64,000 bases of DNA from Lentzea sp. NBRC 105346 (GTDB lineage: Bacteria; Actinomycetota; Actinomycetes; Mycobacteriales; Pseudonocardiaceae). The first letter of the stretch is position 1. Each line of letters opens with the position of its first letter. The notes beneath the pieces were generated by a model. That model did no database searches. It was given only the letters and a program-made list of their open reading frames with translations, and had not been told where the DNA came from. Below are positions 25,471 to 50,342 of the stretch, piece after piece. Location of the stretch: the NCBI RefSeq assembly GCF_030269605.1, contig NZ_BSTQ01000001.1, positions 1,076,850 to 1,140,849 of the forward strand. The letters are read 5' to 3'. A program made the position numbers and the translations under genes.

Positions 25471-26603
25471 TCACCCTGCGGGAGAACTCGACCACGGGCG
25501 CGGTGACGGAGTTGACCGCGCCGCAGCTGGCGTTCCTCCGCTCGTGTCCGCTGGTCTCGGTCCGGGCCGCCGGTTCGGGCTACCGCCTGGTGCCCAGGCC
25601 ACGTCAGGTCGGCGCTGTTCACGCCCACGGCCTCGACGTGGTCGTGTCGCCCAAGGTCAGCATTCCGCGCCTGCTGTTCATGATCGGTTACGCGAACAAT
25701 CCCAGGTTCCTCCCGGAGAACGTCGAGGGCGTGTCGGCGTCCGGCCTGTGGGCCATCGTGGCGGAGACGTTGTGTCGCAACGCCGAACGCGCCCTGGCCG
25801 GTGGTGTGTTGCAGGGTTACACGACGACTTCCTCGGCGAGCACCGTGCTGCGTGGCCGGATCCGCGTTGGCGACCAGATCACGCGGCGACCGGGTCGCTC
25901 TCTGCCGGTGGAGATCACGCACGACGAGTACACCGTGGACATTCCGGAGAACCGAACTCTGCGCGCCGCGATCCGTCGCATGCGTACGGTTCCGCGCCTC
26001 TCGCCTCTCCTGCTGGCGCGCTTGCGGCACCTGGACAATCGGCTTCCTGATGTTTCGCCTGTTGTTTCGCCTTGGCGGCCGAACCGGTTGAACGCTCGCT
26101 ACCAGCCGGCGTTGCGGATCGCCGACCTCGTGCTCGACACGATGTCCTTCGAGGTTGGTGCTTCCGGGCTGTCCATTGCCTCGTTCGTCGTGAACATGGA
26201 TCGGGTGTTCGAGGCCTTCGTCACCACCGCTTTGCGGGAGGCCTGGAGTTCGTTCCCCGGCCGGACTGTCGATCAGTTTCGTACCAGCCTGGACGAGGAC
26301 GGCTCTCTCGCCATGCGCCCTGATGTCGTGCACCTGGTGGACGGCCGGCCTCGGTTCGTCGTCGATGCCAAGTACAAGCTGGAGTCGCCCAATACCGATC
26401 ACTACCAGGTTCTTGCCTACTGCACCGCCTTACAGGTCACCTCTGCCTGGCTCGTTTACGCCAGTGGCACGGGGTCTGTGCGGCGTCGGCGGGTTCGGAA
26501 CTCGCCGATCACCATCACCGAGTACCCGCTGCGGCTTGATGTCCCGCCTGCGGATCTGCTGGCTCAGATCTCGGATCTGGCTCACTCGGCTTGGGCTTCC
26601 TGA
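25467..26603 (+). CDS. mcrC: McrC-type nuclease subunit of a type IV restriction system
   Basis: A 378-residue partner of McrB. The N-terminal half is a beta-rich domain typical of McrC (SIPRLLFMIGYANNPRFLPE, AERALAGGVLQGYTTTSSAS, LRGRIRVGDQITRRPGRSLP). The C-terminal half carries a PD-(D/E)xK nuclease core: AMRPDVVHLV and RFVVDAKYKLE supply the acidic and lysine residues, and HYQVLAYCTAL the following helix. GTG 25467 in a GTGA overlap with mcrB is the start. Codon use becomes noticeably less GC-rich at third positions in the last ~500 bases, continuing into the next genes. Confidence 0.88.
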   Translation: MITLRENSTTGAVTELTAPQLAFLRSCPLVSVRAAGSGYRLVPRPRQVGAVHAHGLDVVVSPKVSIPRLLFMIGYANNPRFLPENVEGVSASGLWAIVAETLCRNAERALAGGVLQGYTTTSSASTVLRGRIRVGDQITRRPGRSLPVEITHDEYTVDIPENRTLRAAIRRMRTVPRLSPLLLARLRHLDNRLPDVSPVVSPWRPNRLNARYQPALRIADLVLDTMSFEVGASGLSIASFVVNMDRVFEAFVTTALREAWSSFPGRTVDQFRTSLDEDGSLAMRPDVVHLVDGRPRFVVDAKYKLESPNTDHYQVLAYCTALQVTSAWLVYASGTGSVRRRRVRNSPITITEYPLRLDVPPADLLAQISDLAHSAWAS

Positions 26604-26616
26604 ATAGCATCGGTCC

Positions 26617-26907
26617 ATGACCTATGGTTCGCCTCGTCCTCAGGGTCCTTGGTTCGGGCTCGCCGCTGTGGTCCTTGGGCTGCTTGGATGTGTGGTGCCG
26701 TTGCTGCCGATCGATCTGACGAACATTCGGTTCTTCATCGCTCTTCCGTTTGCGGCTGCTGGGTTCGTTTTCGCGATCGTCGGGCTTACTGGGCGGCGGC
26801 GGGGGAAGGCGTTGGCTGCTGTTGGTGTGGTGCTGTCGCTTCTGGCTTTGACGCTCGGCATGATCATGTCTGGTAATCGGATCGTGCATGAGGTGCTTGG
26901 TCTTTAG
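26617..26907 (+). CDS. small membrane protein (DUF4190-like)
   Basis: A 96-residue protein with a short Pro-rich N-terminus and three predicted membrane spans (WFGLAAVVLGLLGCVVPLLP, FFIALPFAAAGFVFAIVGL, ALAAVGVVLSLLALTLGMIM) separated by a basic TGRRRGK loop. This is the pattern of DUF4190-type small membrane proteins. It follows mcrC by 13 bases and may be co-transcribed. Third codon positions are T/G-rich compared with the rest of the window. The role is unknown; a membrane effector for the restriction system is possible, but these proteins are common in actinobacteria. Confidence 0.65.
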   Translation: MTYGSPRPQGPWFGLAAVVLGLLGCVVPLLPIDLTNIRFFIALPFAAAGFVFAIVGLTGRRRGKALAAVGVVLSLLALTLGMIMSGNRIVHEVLGL

Positions 26908-26931
26908 GTTTGGACGCGGCTGCGCCGCGAC

Positions 26932-26993
26932 ACGTTGGCATTTTCGTGCGGGCCAGGCGCTAGGGCGCCTGGCCCGCACGAAAATGCCAACGT
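26932..26993. repeat. left terminal hairpin, perfect 29-bp arms
   Basis: Arms 26932-26960 and 26965-26993 are perfectly complementary around the loop TAGG. The outer part reads ACGTTGGCATTTTCGTGCGG. It lies just after the small membrane gene and could also terminate it. Confidence 0.85.
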
Positions 26994-27114
26994 ACCGAGA
27001 CGGTGGTTGGCCGCCGTCGTGGTCCCGATCCTGTCCAGACCTGCGTTCGTTCGGTGCGGTTGCGGGCGTGGTTGGGATGAGGTGGCTGGAGTTGGCACCG
27101 TTTGTTCCCATGCG

Positions 27115-28341
27115 TCAGCTCACCATGTGCAGCGGGTTGCGTCTCGGCTGCCGTAGCGGATCGAGGAAGGCCGGTGGGATGAAGTACGGGATTCCGTTGC
27201 GGAGCTTCACTTCCCAGTCGCTGTGGTGGATCAGGTCGTGATGTCGTCGGCAGAGTAGGACGCCGTTGTGCAGGCTCGTCTTGCCGCCCTCGACCCACGG
27301 TTTGATGTGGTGGCCTTCGCAGTGCCGTGGTGGCCGGTTGCAGCCCGGGAAGGCGCAGCCTTTGTCCCTGGCGACCAGCGCTCGGCGTAGGCCGCTATTG
27401 AACAGCCGCGCCTTGCGGCCGACGTTGAGCGGTTGCGAGCGGCTGCCCATCACGATCGGGATGACGCCTGCCTCGCAGGCGAGTTTCCGGAGTTGCTTGA
27501 CCGGGATGTGTTCCTGGTTGTCCAGCAGCGCATGACCGGTCTTGGCGGCCAGGTCGTCGTAGGAGACGGTGACGGCCAGGGTGACGGTTTCGCCGCCGTG
27601 CTCGGGCAGCACGTCGGCGCGCAGCACCAGGTTGATCAGCTCGACGAAGGCGTCGCCCTGCCGTTCGGCATAGGTGCGCGTGTCGGGGCCGTCCGGGCCG
27701 GTGGGACGGGGCTTGGCCAGCGGGTCCAGCGCGCCCAGGAATTTAGCGCCGATCTCCGGGCCGAGATCGAAGCTGCCGCGGCAGCGGCCGCGTTCCCAGC
27801 GGGCGATCAGCTGGTCACTCGGTGGCGCCGGATCCTTCTCGTCGGGTTCCTCGTCGTTCTGGAACATCCGGTAGATGATCTTCTTGCCGAAGTCGCGGAT
27901 CGCGCCCGGCTCGAACGTCCGGCCGAACTCGGCCAGCTGCTGCTCGACGAACGCCGTCTTGTCGGGCGTGGCATCGGCAGGCATGTTCTTCATCGCCCTG
28001 GCGATCGCGTCGACATGCTCCTCGGTCAACTCGCCCTCGGCCATCGCCTCGGCGGTCGCGGGCAGCTCCGGTGCGATCTCCGCACCGGACGGGCCGAGTT
28101 GATGTGTCAGCAGCCGCGCGCGGCGCAGCTTCCCCTTCGCCACGCTCGGATCCCAATGCACCTGATCCTTCAACACCCCGACCAGGTCCTTGTAGCCCAA
28201 CTCTGCCGCCAGGCCACGCCGATCCATCTCGGCAATCCAGCGCAGCAGCCGCTCATGACGCGCACGGATCTCACGCTCCATCTCGGCGAAGCCGTCAAGC
28301 AGCTCACCGCTGGAGAGAAGGGACAGATCCGTGTCGACCAT
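27115..28341 (-). CDS. DUF222-HNH endonuclease-like protein (13E12 family)
   Basis: A 408-residue protein. Residues ~1-290 are DUF222, mostly helical (LLDGFAEMEREIRARHERLL, AELGYKDLVGVLKDQVHWDP, GELTEEHVDAIARAMKNMPA). The C-terminus is an HNH nuclease: CAFPGCNRPPRHCEGHHIKP with the zinc Cys pair and the catalytic HH, then SLHNGVLLCRRHHDLIHHSD with the N and final H. All HNH residues appear intact. The family is multi-copy in mycobacteria (13E12 repeats) and frequently associated with repeats or prophage sites. Here it is the only gene between long inverted repeats, suggesting it acts on or moves that unit. ATG 28341 starts MVDTDLSLLSSGE. Confidence 0.9.
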   Translation of the reverse strand: MVDTDLSLLSSGELLDGFAEMEREIRARHERLLRWIAEMDRRGLAAELGYKDLVGVLKDQVHWDPSVAKGKLRRARLLTHQLGPSGAEIAPELPATAEAMAEGELTEEHVDAIARAMKNMPADATPDKTAFVEQQLAEFGRTFEPGAIRDFGKKIIYRMFQNDEEPDEKDPAPPSDQLIARWERGRCRGSFDLGPEIGAKFLGALDPLAKPRPTGPDGPDTRTYAERQGDAFVELINLVLRADVLPEHGGETVTLAVTVSYDDLAAKTGHALLDNQEHIPVKQLRKLACEAGVIPIVMGSRSQPLNVGRKARLFNSGLRRALVARDKGCAFPGCNRPPRHCEGHHIKPWVEGGKTSLHNGVLLCRRHHDLIHHSDWEVKLRNGIPYFIPPAFLDPLRQPRRNPLHMVS

Positions 28342-28531
28342 GCGTTCGACTCTACCGCAAGATCACGACCAGATAACGCGTTTACCAGCGAAAACATGTG
28401 ACCCGATCGGGTGAATCAAATAAACGATCAAAACGCAAGCCACCTCATCCCAGCCACGCCCGCAACCGCACAACACAACGCAACCCAGCCAACGGATCGG
28501 GACCACGACGGCAGCCAACCACCTTCTCGGT

Positions 28532-28593
28532 ACGTTGGCATTTTCGCGCGGACGCGGCGCCCTAGCGCCGTGGCCGCGCGAAAATGCCAACGT
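28532..28593. repeat. right terminal hairpin, 29-bp arms with two mismatches
   Basis: Arms 28532-28560 and 28565-28593 pair around CCTA. The outer 19 bases of each arm match the left hairpin except for one C/T change. It may also serve as a terminator for the glycosidase gene that ends at 28621. Confidence 0.85.
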
Positions 28594-28620
28594 GGCGGCC
28601 GAAGGCCGAAACACCCCGGA

Positions 28621-30948
28621 TCAGACCGCCACAAGCTCCCACTGCTGACTGTCCCCACCGTTGGCCCGAGCCTGCACCACGGCCGCACCATCCCCCGAGC
28701 CAACAACATCCGCAACCAGTCCACTGTAGACAGAGGTCAGCGTGCCTGAGACAGTCCACTGCTGATTGGCCCCACCGTTGGGCTCCCACTGAATCAACTG
28801 CGTCCCGGGAGTAGTAGAGAACCCAGGCACATCCAAAGCCTTACCACTGGCCACATTCAGCAAGGCAGCCCCACTACGCACCCACTGCTGATCAGCAGAC
28901 CCGTTGTCAGTCCACTGGACGATCTGAGAACCAGAGGTGGCGAGCACCTTCCCAGTCCCCCGATTAACGATCTTGACCTTCGACGAAGACCCACCACCAC
29001 TCAAGGCAAGGTTGTCGAACTGAACGTTCCGCCAACCCCCAACCTGCAACCCACCAGGCCCAGACCGGTAAGTGCCATCAACCGCACTACCAACCACAGC
29101 CCCGTCAACCCGAGCCGTAATAGTGCTCCCAGCGAACGACACGGAGAGGTTGTGCCAAGTCCCGACCCCAAGGCGAGCACGCGTACCGCTGGCCAACGTG
29201 TCCAAAGCCCCGTTGGTACGCCCACGCAGGAGAGCCCAAGCCCCGGTATCCGAAACCCGGAAGTAGTAGGCGTTGATACGCCCAACCTCCCAGTAGTCAC
29301 GATCACCGTGCCGACCGAGCAAGGAGACGGACCCAGCCTGCTCGAACAGCACGTCAGAGGAGATCGTGTAGTCCGACAAACTGTTATCCCCGATCAACGC
29401 ATACGGCGTAGCGGAGTTCTGCTGCCAGGGAATCACCTTGATCGGAGCCATCTGCCGCACACACTTCCCAGTCCGGCCAGTACAGGGAACGACCTCGAAC
29501 GACCCGTGCTGATCAGCCAGGTAACGCGCAGGCCGAGCCACGTCATAGGACTCGAAGTCATCCCGATGCGGCAACGGGAAGGGCCGCGAACCAGGTGACA
29601 CCGCAGTCCCTTTACCCTGTCCACCAACGGAACTGATCGTGTAGATGTACCCAGGCTGCAACGACAACGCGGTCCCCGGCCGATAGTCGGCCTGCCGCAC
29701 GAACCAGTCACCGGGCGAGTTGGACCGCAGGTTGGTGGCATAAACCCGCGCCGCCCCACCAGGCAACCCACGCACGTCCAACGTCACCGACTGCGCCGAA
29801 GACGCACGCGTAGTCTCGATCACCGTCGAATAGGCGGAGTGGTCCGCAGCCTGCAGGCTGATGTAACTACCGTTGACCCGGTTCCCGGAGAGCAGCCCAG
29901 ACCCGGAGTCGATGAACTTCCAGCCGATCTGCGTGAACTGCGTGAGGTGGGCCATCGTCCAGGCCTGCTTACCGATCTCGTACGCACCAGACCAGGGCTG
30001 AGCGGCCACTGCAAGCCCCGTGGTCTGGAACGGCAACCCAGGCGGCAACGCGGCGATCAACGGCCAGTTGATGTACGCGGTCATGCGCGCGTCGACGTAC
30101 CCGAGCGTGAGCTGCCGAGCCATCCGATCCGCCCCGCGATGGAAGTCCAAGGACCCGTTCTCACTGGCCCACAACGGTTTCCCGATGTTTCGCGCGGTAG
30201 CCGTGGAGTGACAAGAGTAGGCGGTAGCGTCATCACCGTTGGCCCCGTCGCACGGATAGTGCGTGCCCAGAACGTCGACCGCGTCGTGGAACGACGCATC
30301 GCTGACCATGTCATCGGCGACACCCCACCCGGTGGAGTCCGCGCCGACCACAAGCGTGGGCAGGCCGTTGTCCCGCAAGGCCCGCTTCAACCGGACGAAC
30401 CACCCGCGGTCCCAGCCGTTCTCGTTCCAACCACCGATGTAGTCGATGGTCAAACCGTGCGAATCACGCGCACCCTTCAGCCACTTGACCAGGTAGTCGA
30501 TCATGTCGTCGGACCAGAACTCGCCGCCACCGATCCAACCGGGCGCGCCCCACGCCAGGCCGGCGAGCTTGATCGACGGGTTGCGCGCCTTCGCCTGCTC
30601 CATCAGCCACCACTCGTAGCCGCGCTGGTAGTTCTCGTCGTCGCGGCTGTGCATGTGGCTCGGCTCGGCGCCGTCGGTGGAGTTCATGTCCCCGCCGACC
30701 TCGACCTTGAACAGCTGGATCGACGCGCCGTAGCCCGGTTTGAACAGGTAGTCGAGGATCCGGCTGCGTTGCGGCTCGGGATAGTCGAGCAGCAGTTTGC
30801 TGTTGCCACCGCCGCCGCTCACCGCGCCGACGCCGTCGTATGTGCGACCGCCCTGTGCGCCGTCGACCATGATCGTCGTGGCCGCGGCGGCCGGGGTGAC
30901 GACCACCGAGCCCGCCAGCAACGCGAGCACCGCCAGGAGTTTCCGCAT
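28621..30948 (-). CDS. secreted GH59-like (galactocerebrosidase-type) glycosidase with ricin-type lectin domain
   Basis: A 775-residue exported enzyme. A signal peptide (MRKLLAVLALLAGSVVVTPA, cleavage near AAA) leads into a TIM-barrel glycosidase of the GH59/GH30 type: DGAQGGRTYDGVGAVSGGGG opens the domain, DYIGGWNENGWD carries the acid/base Glu and KPLWASENGSLDF the nucleophile Glu. A beta-sandwich/lectin-like region follows (DDFESYDVARPARYLADQHG), then a C-terminal ricin beta-trefoil with QQW repeats (NGSADQQWV, NGGANQQWTV, GGDSQQWEL). Galactosyl or related sugars are the likely substrates. ATG 30948 is selected for the signal peptide. Third positions are AT-richer in the 3' half than in the 5' third. 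Confidence 0.85.
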   Translation of the reverse strand: MRKLLAVLALLAGSVVVTPAAAATTIMVDGAQGGRTYDGVGAVSGGGGNSKLLLDYPEPQRSRILDYLFKPGYGASIQLFKVEVGGDMNSTDGAEPSHMHSRDDENYQRGYEWWLMEQAKARNPSIKLAGLAWGAPGWIGGGEFWSDDMIDYLVKWLKGARDSHGLTIDYIGGWNENGWDRGWFVRLKRALRDNGLPTLVVGADSTGWGVADDMVSDASFHDAVDVLGTHYPCDGANGDDATAYSCHSTATARNIGKPLWASENGSLDFHRGADRMARQLTLGYVDARMTAYINWPLIAALPPGLPFQTTGLAVAAQPWSGAYEIGKQAWTMAHLTQFTQIGWKFIDSGSGLLSGNRVNGSYISLQAADHSAYSTVIETTRASSAQSVTLDVRGLPGGAARVYATNLRSNSPGDWFVRQADYRPGTALSLQPGYIYTISSVGGQGKGTAVSPGSRPFPLPHRDDFESYDVARPARYLADQHGSFEVVPCTGRTGKCVRQMAPIKVIPWQQNSATPYALIGDNSLSDYTISSDVLFEQAGSVSLLGRHGDRDYWEVGRINAYYFRVSDTGAWALLRGRTNGALDTLASGTRARLGVGTWHNLSVSFAGSTITARVDGAVVGSAVDGTYRSGPGGLQVGGWRNVQFDNLALSGGGSSSKVKIVNRGTGKVLATSGSQIVQWTDNGSADQQWVRSGAALLNVASGKALDVPGFSTTPGTQLIQWEPNGGANQQWTVSGTLTSVYSGLVADVVGSGDGAAVVQARANGGDSQQWELVAV

Positions 30949-47115: not shown

Positions 47116-47267
47116 CGCCCTTCGGCCTCGGCGAGCCGTGCGTGCAACCGCTCCCGGATCTGGTCCGGTGTGTACGCCGCGCGCTTGCGCTGAGCCCGCG
47201 CGACCATCACCCCACTGGCGGCAACACCGACGAACGCGGCCACGCCAAGCACCTTCCACCACCGCAT
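47112..47267 (-). CDS. 51-residue single-span membrane protein
   Basis: A short gene: ATG 47267 encodes MRWWKVLGVAAFVGVAASGV, then MVARAQRKRAAYTPDQIRER and a short LHARLAEAEGR tail. One N-terminal membrane span is followed by a basic, helical cytosolic tail. Such YtxH-like/small actinobacterial membrane proteins (often annotated DLW-39-like or hypothetical) are frequent. It is convergent with the glycosidase-like gene (4-base overlap) and divergent from the YiiX-type gene 19 bases away. Its function is unknown. Confidence 0.7.
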   Translation of the reverse strand: MRWWKVLGVAAFVGVAASGVMVARAQRKRAAYTPDQIRERLHARLAEAEGR

Positions 47268-47286
47268 GTGCCTAGGCTACGGGTCC

Positions 47287-47925
47287 ATGGCGATCACACT
47301 GGACGAGGCCGTCGACCTGACCCGGACGGGCGACGTGTGGATCTTCCGAGGCCGCAGTGCGGCGGACCGCGCCATCCAGGCCATGACCAACAGTCCGGTC
47401 AACCACGTGGGCATGGCGGTGGTCCTCGACGACCTGCCCCCGTTGATGTGGCACGCCGAGCTGGGCCGGTCCCTCACGGACATGTGGACCGGCACACGTC
47501 AGCGCGGCGTGCAGCTGCACGACCTGCGTTCGGCCGTCGTCACGTGGTCACAGAAGTACGGCCAGCGGGCGTGGCTGCGCCAGCTCGACCACCCCGTCAC
47601 GCGCGAGATGGAGGACGCCGTCCTGCGCACCATCGCCCGCCTCGACGGCACACCGTTCCCGACCACCGCGCGCCTCGCCTCCCGGTGGCTGCGCGGCCGC
47701 CTTCCCATCAAGCACCGCGAGGGCGCACCGCTGGAAACCGCGTTCTGCGCCGAGGTAGTAGCAGTCACCTACGAGGCCATGGGCCTGCTCCCGAAGCGCC
47801 GCCCCAACTGGTACGACCCAGGCCGCTTCTGGAGCGGCGACGACCTGGACCTCCTGAACAACGCCAAACTAGGCGGCGAGATCGCGGTCGACGTCCCAAA
47901 CGAACGTAAAACTCAGGGGTCGTGA
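47287..47925 (+). CDS. YiiX/YebB-type permuted NlpC/P60 cysteine peptidase-like protein
   Basis: A 212-residue protein of the circularly permuted papain-like NlpC/P60 group. GDVWIFRGRSAADRAIQAMT leads to SPVNHVGMAVVLDD carrying the catalytic His. LETAFCAEVVAVTYEAMGLL carries the nucleophile Cys on the helix. No signal peptide, so it is cytosolic or non-classical. Family members act on peptidoglycan peptides or acyl groups. ATG 47287 is the start. The last seven codons (ERKTQGS) are written inside the first unit of the 118-bp palindrome that follows. Confidence 0.8.
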   Translation: MAITLDEAVDLTRTGDVWIFRGRSAADRAIQAMTNSPVNHVGMAVVLDDLPPLMWHAELGRSLTDMWTGTRQRGVQLHDLRSAVVTWSQKYGQRAWLRQLDHPVTREMEDAVLRTIARLDGTPFPTTARLASRWLRGRLPIKHREGAPLETAFCAEVVAVTYEAMGLLPKRRPNWYDPGRFWSGDDLDLLNNAKLGGEIAVDVPNERKTQGS

Positions 47926-48019
47926 GCGTAAGACTCAGGGGGCCGGAGCGTAAGACTCGCGCGTGTCTTACGCTCCCGCCCCGCGTGTCTTACGTTCCGG
48001 ACCCCTGAGTTTTACGTTC
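47902..48019. repeat. 118-bp palindrome of six 13-bp units phased at 22 bp
   Basis: Three direct units start at 47902 (GAACGTAAAACTC), 47924 and 47946 (GAGCGTAAGACTC), exactly 22 bases apart. Three inverted units start at 47963 (GTGTCTTACGCTC), 47985 (GTGTCTTACGTTC) and 48007 (GAGTTTTACGTTC), again 22 apart. A GCGC core separates the halves, and GGGGTC/GACCCC spacers also pair. The two ends overlap the stop codons of the convergent peptidase and amidase genes. It could form a large cruciform or RNA hairpin and serve as bidirectional terminator or protein array site. Confidence 0.9.
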
Positions 48020-49154
48020 AGGCCACTGCGGTTCCGTAGGTTCGGTCTCGTTCTTCTTCGATCAGGCGGGCCACTGAGAGCAGTGCGCCTTCTGCGGATG
48101 GGACCGCGACGAGGGTTACCGGTAGCGGGAAGCCGTCCGGGTCCCAGCCCGCCAGCACGGACACTGCCGGGTAGCCGCTGACTCGCCACAGGGGTGAGAA
48201 CGGCGTGGTGGCGCCGTTGCGCACGAGGACCGCGCCCGGCAGGGACGTCGACTCCGCCGGCCCGGTGTAGCCGGGCGTCACCAGCACGTCGATCCCGCCG
48301 AACATCGAGTCGAGCATCGTGCGCTCGGCCGACACCAGGGCACGGCACAGGCCGCGCAACGGTGACGGCACGAGCTTGCCGAGCAGCTCCAGTTCCCGCG
48401 GGCTCGCGGTGAGGTGCGGCGCGAGCAGCAACCGGGCGTGTTCGGCCAGCACCGGGTCGTGATCGACAACCTCGTTGGCGTGCAACGAGAGCAGCGCCGC
48501 GACGTCCTCGACGACGCGCCGCATCGACGGACGCGTACGCGCGGTCATTGATACGCCACGCAGCGAAATGCCGATCCGGAGTGGACGGTCGGGCCCGGAA
48601 ACACCCCAACCCAGTCCGGAAAGGACATGCGCGACATCGGAGACATCGCGCGCCAGCACGCCGGATCTGCCGGACGTCTGGTAGCCAACAACCCCGACGG
48701 CGCCCGCCGGAACCTGGCCCGCGCCAGGGGCTTTCCGAGCGAGGACCGCAGGCACGACCCCTGATGCCACCGCGACCGCGGTGCCGCTGACCAGCGGATC
48801 CAGTGCCGTGGCGGGGAGATCGGGTGCCGGGTTGCGGTGCCGTTCCAGGGCCGAGGTCCGGCCCACGACGACGGCGCCGGCCGCTTGCAGGACGCTGATC
48901 GCGTTGCGCGGCAAAGAATCTTCGACGGCCATGGGCACGCCGAGCAACGGGCCGCGGTCGCCCGACCGCAGCCTCCGATCGGCGTCCTCAGCGCTACGAC
49001 GAGCGCCGGAGGCGTCCACCTCCGAGAAGCCGTACCGGTGCGGGTCGAGCTTCTTCAGAACCGCCGCAAGGAGTTCTGCTGCGGTGGTCGCACCGTTTGT
49101 GAGCAACCGGGCTTGGGCGGCTGCTCCGGGATAGCACATCGGTGTTTCGTCCAC
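48018..49154 (-). CDS. amidase-signature family protein lacking the catalytic triad
   Basis: A 378-residue member of the amidase-signature fold. The scaffold is recognisable: RGPLLGVPMAVEDSLP where the catalytic Lys should be has Glu, VLQAAGAVVVGRTSALERHR follows, the Ser-rich loop GGSSGG is replaced by DPLVSGTAVAVASGVV, and the nucleophile loop by APGAGQVPAGAVGVVG. The C-terminal FSPLWRVSGYPAVSVLAGWD and GFPLPVTLVAVPSAEGALL segments are typical. With Lys, cis-Ser and Ser all missing it is probably a non-catalytic pseudoenzyme. GTG 49154 has AGGAA upstream. It ends inside the phased palindrome. Confidence 0.8.
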   Translation of the reverse strand: MDETPMCYPGAAAQARLLTNGATTAAELLAAVLKKLDPHRYGFSEVDASGARRSAEDADRRLRSGDRGPLLGVPMAVEDSLPRNAISVLQAAGAVVVGRTSALERHRNPAPDLPATALDPLVSGTAVAVASGVVPAVLARKAPGAGQVPAGAVGVVGYQTSGRSGVLARDVSDVAHVLSGLGWGVSGPDRPLRIGISLRGVSMTARTRPSMRRVVEDVAALLSLHANEVVDHDPVLAEHARLLLAPHLTASPRELELLGKLVPSPLRGLCRALVSAERTMLDSMFGGIDVLVTPGYTGPAESTSLPGAVLVRNGATTPFSPLWRVSGYPAVSVLAGWDPDGFPLPVTLVAVPSAEGALLSVARLIEEERDRTYGTAVA

Positions 49155-49382: not shown

Positions 49383-50342
49383 TTGCGACGTGTCGCGAGC
49401 CTGGTGCTGGTCGGCCTGGGCATCTTCACGCTGACGCTCGGAGCAGTGCTCCGGTTCTACGTCTACCCCGAGCTCGCCGTCGTGCCGCTCGACCAGAAGA
49501 CGGAATCGGTTGCTCAGGGTGCCGCGCGGGTCTTCTACCCGAAGGACCTCGTGGTGAAGGATGCTCAGCTCACCGCCACGCGCAAGGTCGAGAGCAACCG
49601 CGCTCGCCCCGAGGTCGAACGCAACGGTTCCGTGATGGTGTGGGATCAAGGCCTGCTCGTCACCGATTCCAACAACACGATCGTGTCCGCGGTCAAGCAT
49701 CAGGTCTGCCTCGACCGGCACACGAACATGGCTGTGCCGAAGTGCAGTGAGCAGTACGTGACGGACAACAAGGACGGCCCCACCGACGACGACCGCGCGG
49801 TCAAACAGGAGGGCCTGAACTACAAGTTCCCGTTCGGCACCGAACAGACGGACTACCCGTACTTCGACCTCACGGTGCGCAAGGCGACCACGGCGCGTTT
49901 CCAGGGCACGGAGACGCTCGGCGGTCTCGAGGTCTACAAGTTCGTGCAGGAGATCCCGCGCACGAAGCTGCGCGAACAGGAGGTGCCCGGCTCGCTGGTC
50001 AACAGCACCGAGGCCTCCGTGACGGCGAGCCGGTACTACCAGAACACCCGTACGTTCTGGGTCGAACCGCTCAGCGGGATCATCGTCAAGGGCTCGGAAA
50101 AACAGAAGCAATTGCTCGTCGGACCGGACGGCAAGGACGGCACCGTCCTGCTCGACGGAACGCTGACGTTTACCGACCAAACCGTCAACGAATCGGTTCA
50201 GCGCGCCACCGAGGCGCACGACAAACTGAAACTGATCAGTTCGACCGGACCGTTGGTTCTCGGCGGTCTAGGTTTGGTCATGTTGCTCGGCGGAATTCTT
50301 CTCGGCGTTACCGGAAAGCGGTCGGCTAGGCACGTCGCCTGA
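49383..50342 (+). CDS. DUF3068 (PorA-family) membrane-anchored protein
   Basis: A 319-residue envelope protein with a membrane span at each end (VASLVLVGLGIFTLTLGAVL and STGPLVLGGLGLVMLLGGIL) and a ~250-residue outside domain (TDSNNTIVSAVKHQVCLDRH, TDYPYFDLTVRKATTARFQG, YYQNTRTFWVEPLSGIIVKG). This is the DUF3068 pattern, found in mycobacterial Rv0227c beside a methyltransferase, GT and large membrane protein, as here. TTG 49383 with AAGGAGG four bases upstream is chosen over a GTG 33 bases earlier. Function unknown; an envelope polymer role is inferred. It is convergent with the methyltransferase gene (17-base overlap). Confidence 0.83.
   Translation: MRRVASLVLVGLGIFTLTLGAVLRFYVYPELAVVPLDQKTESVAQGAARVFYPKDLVVKDAQLTATRKVESNRARPEVERNGSVMVWDQGLLVTDSNNTIVSAVKHQVCLDRHTNMAVPKCSEQYVTDNKDGPTDDDRAVKQEGLNYKFPFGTEQTDYPYFDLTVRKATTARFQGTETLGGLEVYKFVQEIPRTKLREQEVPGSLVNSTEASVTASRYYQNTRTFWVEPLSGIIVKGSEKQKQLLVGPDGKDGTVLLDGTLTFTDQTVNESVQRATEAHDKLKLISSTGPLVLGGLGLVMLLGGILLGVTGKRSARHVA

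Follow-up and report, generated by a model that had tools for sequence, protein, structure and literature searches.

What is a 118-bp palindrome doing between two convergent genes when it overlaps the stop codons of both? The element in question lies at positions 47902-48019 of the 64,000-nt stretch of the Lentzea sp. NBRC 105346 genome that we analysed (the window), and a sequence-only reading had described it as six 13-bp units set at exact 22-bp steps within the halves of a dyad. Both the units and the steps were confirmed at the coordinates given. By sequence and fold, each half of the palindrome is a polar array of three units, and the two halves are inverted so that their units point inwards. 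Unit 1 (47902-47914, GAACGTAAAACTC), the head of the left arm, lies within the coding sequence of the + strand gene and is followed on the + strand by unit 2 (47924-47936, GAGCGTAAGACTC) and unit 3 (47946-47958, GAGCGTAAGACTC); unit 4 (47963-47975, GAGCGTAAGACAC), unit 5 (47985-47997, GAACGTAAGACAC) and unit 6 (48007-48019, GAACGTAAAACTC), the head of the right arm, lie on the - strand. Units are spaced by 22 inside each half and by 17 over the dyad, and at positions 7-9 both outer units carry AAA while the four inner units carry AAG. The mean unit proposed earlier needs a small correction: two of the six units end in ACAC, so that the consensus becomes GARCGTAARACWC. The equation of 22 bp with two helical turns is true only roughly for B-DNA, whose helix has about 10.5 bp per turn, such that units spaced by 22 bp would drift about 35 degrees per step.

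The overlap with the two stop codons is exact. The TGA of the + strand gene (47923-47925) consists of a T and the GA of unit 2, and that of the - strand gene (48018-48020, read on the - strand) consists of a T and the GA of unit 6. The arms (47902-47960 and 47961-48019, 59 nt each) are 86% complementary without gaps, and the predicted RNA fold, with an 8-nt loop, reaches -94.3 kcal/mol (z -14.2) for the + strand and -90.2 kcal/mol (z -11.6) for the - strand, values equalled by none of 200 shuffles for either strand. Within the window no second copy of the palindrome was detected above chance, and the 10 matches to the unit with up to 3 mismatches, six of them inside the palindrome, compare with a chance expectation of 16.5.

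The upstream gene (47266-47925, + strand) encodes 219 aa without a Pfam match, and the convergent gene (48018-49154, - strand) has a longest ORF of 378 aa with a partial Amidase match (PF01425, residues 278-359). Beyond this amidase-like gene lies a gene that matches Pfam PorA (PF11271, E 1.5e-85; 49404-50342), and elsewhere in the window, at 26001-30000, GC content drops to 0.645 and 0.625 and AT skew moves from -0.313 to +0.228. The upstream gene was found in all 24 genomes of the genus. Its protein finishes near one residue in all 23 congeners (IAVTV, IEIVVM and similar), and an array after its stop codon is absent from 23 of 23. The NBRC 105346 protein ends in PNERKTQGS, a C-terminus that reaches beyond the congeners' protein ends and is mostly encoded by the repeat. 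By this comparison, the upstream gene of NBRC 105346 owes its new C-terminal end to the repeat.

The sequence-only reading had proposed a genome-wide search, in which numerous intergenic copies that differ in unit number but keep the 22-bp step would point to a new repeat family, and a lack of other copies with simple terminator behaviour would speak against one. The 9.39-Mb NBRC 105346 genome contains 39 copies of the strict unit GARYGTAARACTC (reversed control, 0) and 183 units under a wider pattern with up to 1 mismatch (control, 12). Pairs of units 22 bp apart number 49 with the general pattern (control, 0) and 188 with up to 3 mismatches (control, 3). At least 76 arrays were present in 67 NBRC 105346 stretches fetched from among the matches listed, and unit positions 7-9 vary among AAR, ACG, AGG, GGG and CAR forms. 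The search thus returned many gene-end copies of variable unit number and constant 22-bp step, with intergenic copies in relatives as well as in NBRC 105346; the opposite outcome did not occur, as copies are abundant and a canonical U tract is missing. The palindrome belongs to a repeat family of variable length whose copies are scattered over gene 3' ends in some soil actinobacteria.

The same genome holds a dispersed repeat of ~0.9 kb (L219, 3619-4521, with relatives in L194, L209, L226, L206, L210, L220 and L255) that contains degenerate 22-mers along with another tandem repeat, of about 31 bp, and the gene caller placed no gene in its L219 stretch. This repeat is possibly a source of direct arrays.

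Beyond NBRC 105346, at least 116 stretches of other genomes, taken from among the matches listed in a named-genome scan, held 131 arrays. Same-strand steps equal 22 in 156 of the 178 listed in NBRC 105346 and 466 of the 476 listed in the other genomes, a result favoured by the acceptance of weak units only at set distances (20-24 bp included) from a good unit. Among runs of at least 3 units, 19/25 in NBRC 105346 and 125/145 in the others begin with a unit that carries A at position 9, compared with 6/39 and 11/310 middle units that do so (Fisher p 2e-6 and 7e-76, respectively), and later units usually have G there. This head-unit polarity was weak in 11 further genomes (9/19 vs 13/60, p 0.04). 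Palindromic copies come in two types, with units facing inward (centre step 17) or outward (33). In the two closest syntenic pairs, whose flanks are about 94-95% identical, a 44-bp gap corresponding to two units occurs beside other gaps; the idea that all syntenic pairs differ by clean 22-bp steps was rejected, since the remainder of the 10 printed comparisons had mixed gaps.

Gene calls around arrays were composition-based and made in this analysis rather than taken from annotation. By these calls, the 76 NBRC 105346 arrays comprise 39 between convergent genes, 15 plus 14 between co-directional genes, 6 between divergent genes and 2 at an edge. None of the 76 was classed inside a gene, and neither were all but two of the 116 arrays from other genomes that were left for gene-context classes once those near locus ends had been excluded from the 131. 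At the NBRC 105346 loci, all of them selected for holding arrays, an array occupies 33/81 convergent, 27/275 co-directional and 6/75 divergent gene pairs, and at the 116 other loci, selected in the same way, 60/155, 50/472 and 5/153; convergent vs divergent occupancy differs at p 2e-6 and 1e-15, respectively. Arrays often start 2 bases inside the stop codon or 4-9 bases past it: among edges no more than 60 nt from a stop codon, 24/52 in NBRC 105346 and 90/156 in the others fall at -2 or +4 to +9.

Placement was also scored separately for mixed and direct arrays. When any unit, even a weak one, on the opposite strand makes an array mixed, 70 other-genome arrays qualify; a stricter unit definition gives 49 mixed and 72 direct. 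Mixed arrays lie near a 3' end in 23/25 cases in NBRC 105346 and 46/49 in the others, and direct arrays in 12/51 and 56/72, while 5' ends are approached by 4 and 2 mixed and by 1 and 4 direct arrays, respectively. The 30 loci from 11 further genomes hold 38 arrays, of which 22 lie close to a 3' end and 3 to a 5' end; since loci overlap, some arrays enter these counts more than once. Taken together, the family is placed at gene ends, with convergent pairs preferred.

Its distribution is patchy. Of the 24 genomes searched in the window's genus, one has the tandem pattern; in the family Pseudonocardiaceae 32 of 390 genomes have it, spread over 11 of 46 genera, the richest genome holding 398 tandem pairs, and the control gave no hits. 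Saccharothrix, Actinophytocola and Amycolatopsis are the repeat-bearing names among the 80 matches listed. Since the search patterns fix most positions, genomes without a match may carry altered forms, and conservation of the core between genomes is partly built in. The two central bases of the unit are often uniform inside one genome and different among genomes.

Comparison of syntenic sites indicates what stands in place of an array. Between a convergent ABC-F and DivIVA-like pair, named from sequence, 22 congener loci are without the 22-bp array and one congener gave no close match; two species have one other palindrome at this site, two have a second, and several have nearly no intergenic DNA. 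The palindrome found there in two congeners as GAAGGG...CCCTTC (L295, L297) is a third kind beside the 22-bp family and a second dispersed palindrome, which has the core GCAAGTACYACCAACT plus its inverse and stands at gene ends in congeners G002, G011, G012 and four others (L343-L360). The GCAAGTACYACCAACT palindrome, itself one of those at the ABC-F and DivIVA-like site, matches 7 of the 24 genus genomes and none of its matches is in NBRC 105346; 11 of its 18 fetched loci lie between convergent genes.

A comparison of 207 arrays gave 30 pairs whose flanks match on both sides, of which 6 are copies of one NBRC 105346 repeat and 6 link NBRC 105346 loci (L216, L237, L254, L256) to occupied foreign sites. 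Five sites were inspected from 40 array-free candidates, many of which were copies of one NBRC 105346 repeat or had odd gaps: two of these possibly array-free sites have a different palindrome, one has nothing obvious, and two have altered or displaced units. Long palindromes without 22-bp units also occur at syntenic gene ends in L184 (near 2933-2949) and L216 (near 2270-2281). When filled and array-free sites at the five places were compared for the marks of a MITE (terminal inverted repeats, a duplicated target and a mobilising transposase), no target duplication was readable at such divergence and no transposase was identified. Because at least one syntenic site is palindrome-free and several congener pairs have nearly no intergenic DNA, a given locus can do without the element.

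We then consider the level at which the arms pair. Mixed arrays fold strongly, with a median z of -7.95 (26 in NBRC 105346) and -8.13 (70 in the others), and direct arrays fold approximately as their shuffles do (-0.34 for 50 and -1.07 for 53), all of these z values being rough at 12 shuffles per array. An ungapped palindrome score of at least 14 is reached by 27/76 NBRC 105346 arrays and 52/122 others, compared with 9/76 and 6/121 control gene ends, and a score of at least 25 by 16/76 and 36/122, compared with 0/76 and 0/121. In the inner 74 bp of the 15 inward NBRC 105346 copies, 89.9% of cells are paired and 8 of 33 pairs have two-sided changes, a number equalled by 90 of 500 shuffles; shuffles matched the copies in cells paired in 21/500 cases, in covariation score in 13/500 and in pair types in 451/500. 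These alignments suggest moderate covariation support for arm pairing.

Arm mismatches were also counted by gene context, with arrays near locus ends again excluded (122 of 131 other-genome arrays kept). In one-sense contexts, G-T outnumbers A-C by 62 to 34 in 21 other arrays (p 0.006) and by 12 to 9 in 11 NBRC 105346 arrays; between convergent genes the G-T/A-C counts are 66/71 (29 others) and 21/11 (16 in NBRC 105346). The one-sense excess leans to pairing at the RNA level, although strand-biased C-to-T change could also produce it and sister loci are not independent. Given the strong fold, the moderate paired changes in the arms and the one-sense G-T excess, palindromic copies lean to an RNA hairpin, and a palindromic copy probably forms a large hairpin at message ends.

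No U tract follows the arms: the mean is 1.87 T per 10 nt at 54 NBRC 105346 ends and 1.98 at 104 other ends, so that termination at palindromic arrays, if any, is non-canonical. The stable hairpin right after a stop codon that characterises a canonical terminator is found at palindromic copies only. Some Saccharothrix units are able to pair with their own spacers; direct arrays as rows of small hairpins were nevertheless not supported, since shuffles fold alike. As the direct arrays of NBRC 105346 are mostly off 3' ends and direct arrays do not fold, the hairpin is not the family's common denominator.

On balance, the odds slightly favour reading the palindrome as a REP/BIME-like dispersed 3'-end repeat, modular at 22 bp, that acts as an RNA hairpin at mRNA ends. 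The building block is a polar array, in which a head unit with A at position 9 is followed by 13-bp units every 22 bp, and two such arrays set in opposite directions yield a palindrome, in the window with units facing inwards and the heads at the outer ends. The mRNA of either convergent gene would then finish in a hairpin of some 55 pairs that begins from the stop codon. Acting on RNA, such a hairpin could be a two-way 3'-end element that terminates or caps transcripts and limits antisense read-through; arrays may expand and contract by entire units, with some factor carrying them to new gene ends.

The first reading had put forward, as conjectures, a cooperative protein array on one DNA face and extrusion of the dyad as a cruciform. 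Direct arrays keep the unit and the step without folding, which argues for recognition of the unit as such by some factor, and it is a real, if minority, possibility that the family is a DNA-level array, the 22-bp unit being a site for a sequence-specific protein (for a barrier, the nucleoid or mobility) that loads along gene-end arrays, with inversion incidental. The sharing of the unit core by 11 of 46 genera and the genome-specific central bases fit such a site. However, that sharing is partly a product of the search pattern, no candidate protein was found, and arrays are palindromic far more often than control gene ends are, with convergent pairs favoured. More speculatively, Pseudonocardiaceae could have an undescribed system of polar, head-capped 22-bp arrays, which a sequence-specific factor would recognise at gene ends and copy to new stops, unit by unit, as two-way 3'-end elements, the two central bases preferred by that factor varying by genome.

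We consider it unlikely that the repeat is selfish or neutral, spreading because gene ends tolerate insertions, owing its arm likeness to copying within palindromes and having no host function. Simple tolerance would not account for how close arrays lie to stop codons or for their preference for convergent pairs, given that divergent regions, which are intergenic too, are rarely occupied, and the sense-strand G-T excess suggests a constraint at the RNA level; this is set against a patchy presence (1/24 in the genus), an upstream gene without an array in every congener, several unrelated palindrome families in the same niche, and NBRC 105346 direct arrays that are often away from gene ends. An ordinary intrinsic terminator, repetitive by chance, would account for a palindrome at both stop codons and a strong hairpin on either strand, but it would have a U tract and would leave aside a modular unit common to many loci and genomes and the many arrays that form no hairpin, such that we hold it to be very improbable. 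For the REP/BIME-like 3'-end repeat that we prefer, the unrelated palindrome families at the same convergent sites in sister species make it directly testable why and how one gene-end hairpin replaces another, and the constant 22-bp module, together with the head unit, points to a factor that recognises the repeat and can be sought.

Several comparisons with known elements were made. The unit words had no occurrence in the literature searched, the coverage of which was limited, and a word search of the S. espanaensis genome paper gave no word starting repeat, palindrom or terminator. Seven weak Rfam matches (E up to 1), mainly to microRNA hairpins, were all below gathering scores, and membership of a known Rfam family was rejected. 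A promoter-like TTGTCRGACCCC motif, which we take to resemble a DNA-damage promoter, lies within about 250 bp of arrays at L192, L251 and L253; we judged it incidental, as it accompanies 3/76 NBRC 105346 and 0/131 other arrays.

The first reading knew no named element of this design. The family does resemble REP/BIME elements, which form GTAG and CGTC super-families (PMC3733652, PMC2817692). In the parts of the literature consulted, REPs are described as dispersed and extragenic, forming inverted pairs of head-head or tail-tail type; most lie between convergent or co-directional genes, often <20 bp from 3' ends, and their termini can provide the stop codon (PMC3733652). The likeness therefore extends to dispersal, extragenic copies, inverted pairs, nearness to stop codons and repeat-supplied stops (PMC3733652), and the inward (17) and outward (33) pairs parallel the two REP dimer types. 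The construction differs: a single REP unit is a palindrome of 20-40 bp, whereas here a 13-mer that does not fold on itself stands in direct 22-bp tandem, polar and with a head unit. By eye, none of the 15 aligned NBRC 105346 copies has a GTAG/CGTC tag at its ends. No RAYT (Y1 transposase, PF01797) was found in NBRC 105346, and PF01797 is present in 6/29 repeat-bearing and 8/33 repeat-free searched genomes, so that it is not linked to the repeat and membership of the tagged REPs through RAYT was rejected. By the features tested, a family with REP-like working but a 22-bp tandem, a head unit and neither tag nor RAYT is not a tagged-REP member.

Also comparable are the untagged REP-like stem-loop families, including those of M. 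tuberculosis (PMC3733652; surveyed in PMC2267715), which are likewise dispersed, without a known tag and present in an actinobacterium; the portions of these sources that we compared, by description rather than sequence, describe no 22-bp modular tandem. DNA uptake sequences of Neisseria and Pasteurellaceae, as partly covered here, also are short repeated words whose inverted pairs lie between convergent genes and serve as terminators, but these are about 9-11 nt long with generally at least 1,000 copies (PMC1852404), compared with 183 units (up to 1 mismatch; 39 strict) in 22-bp tandems here. Finally, Streptomyces terminators combine long stable hairpins with a low U count (3-4 within the first 10 nt), and the sections consulted describe no repeat family (PMC12207403); T is fewer still at our palindromic ends, about 1.9. 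The arrays add a modular, lineage-specific 3'-end repeat family in the actinobacteria, where few-U termination is still being worked out.
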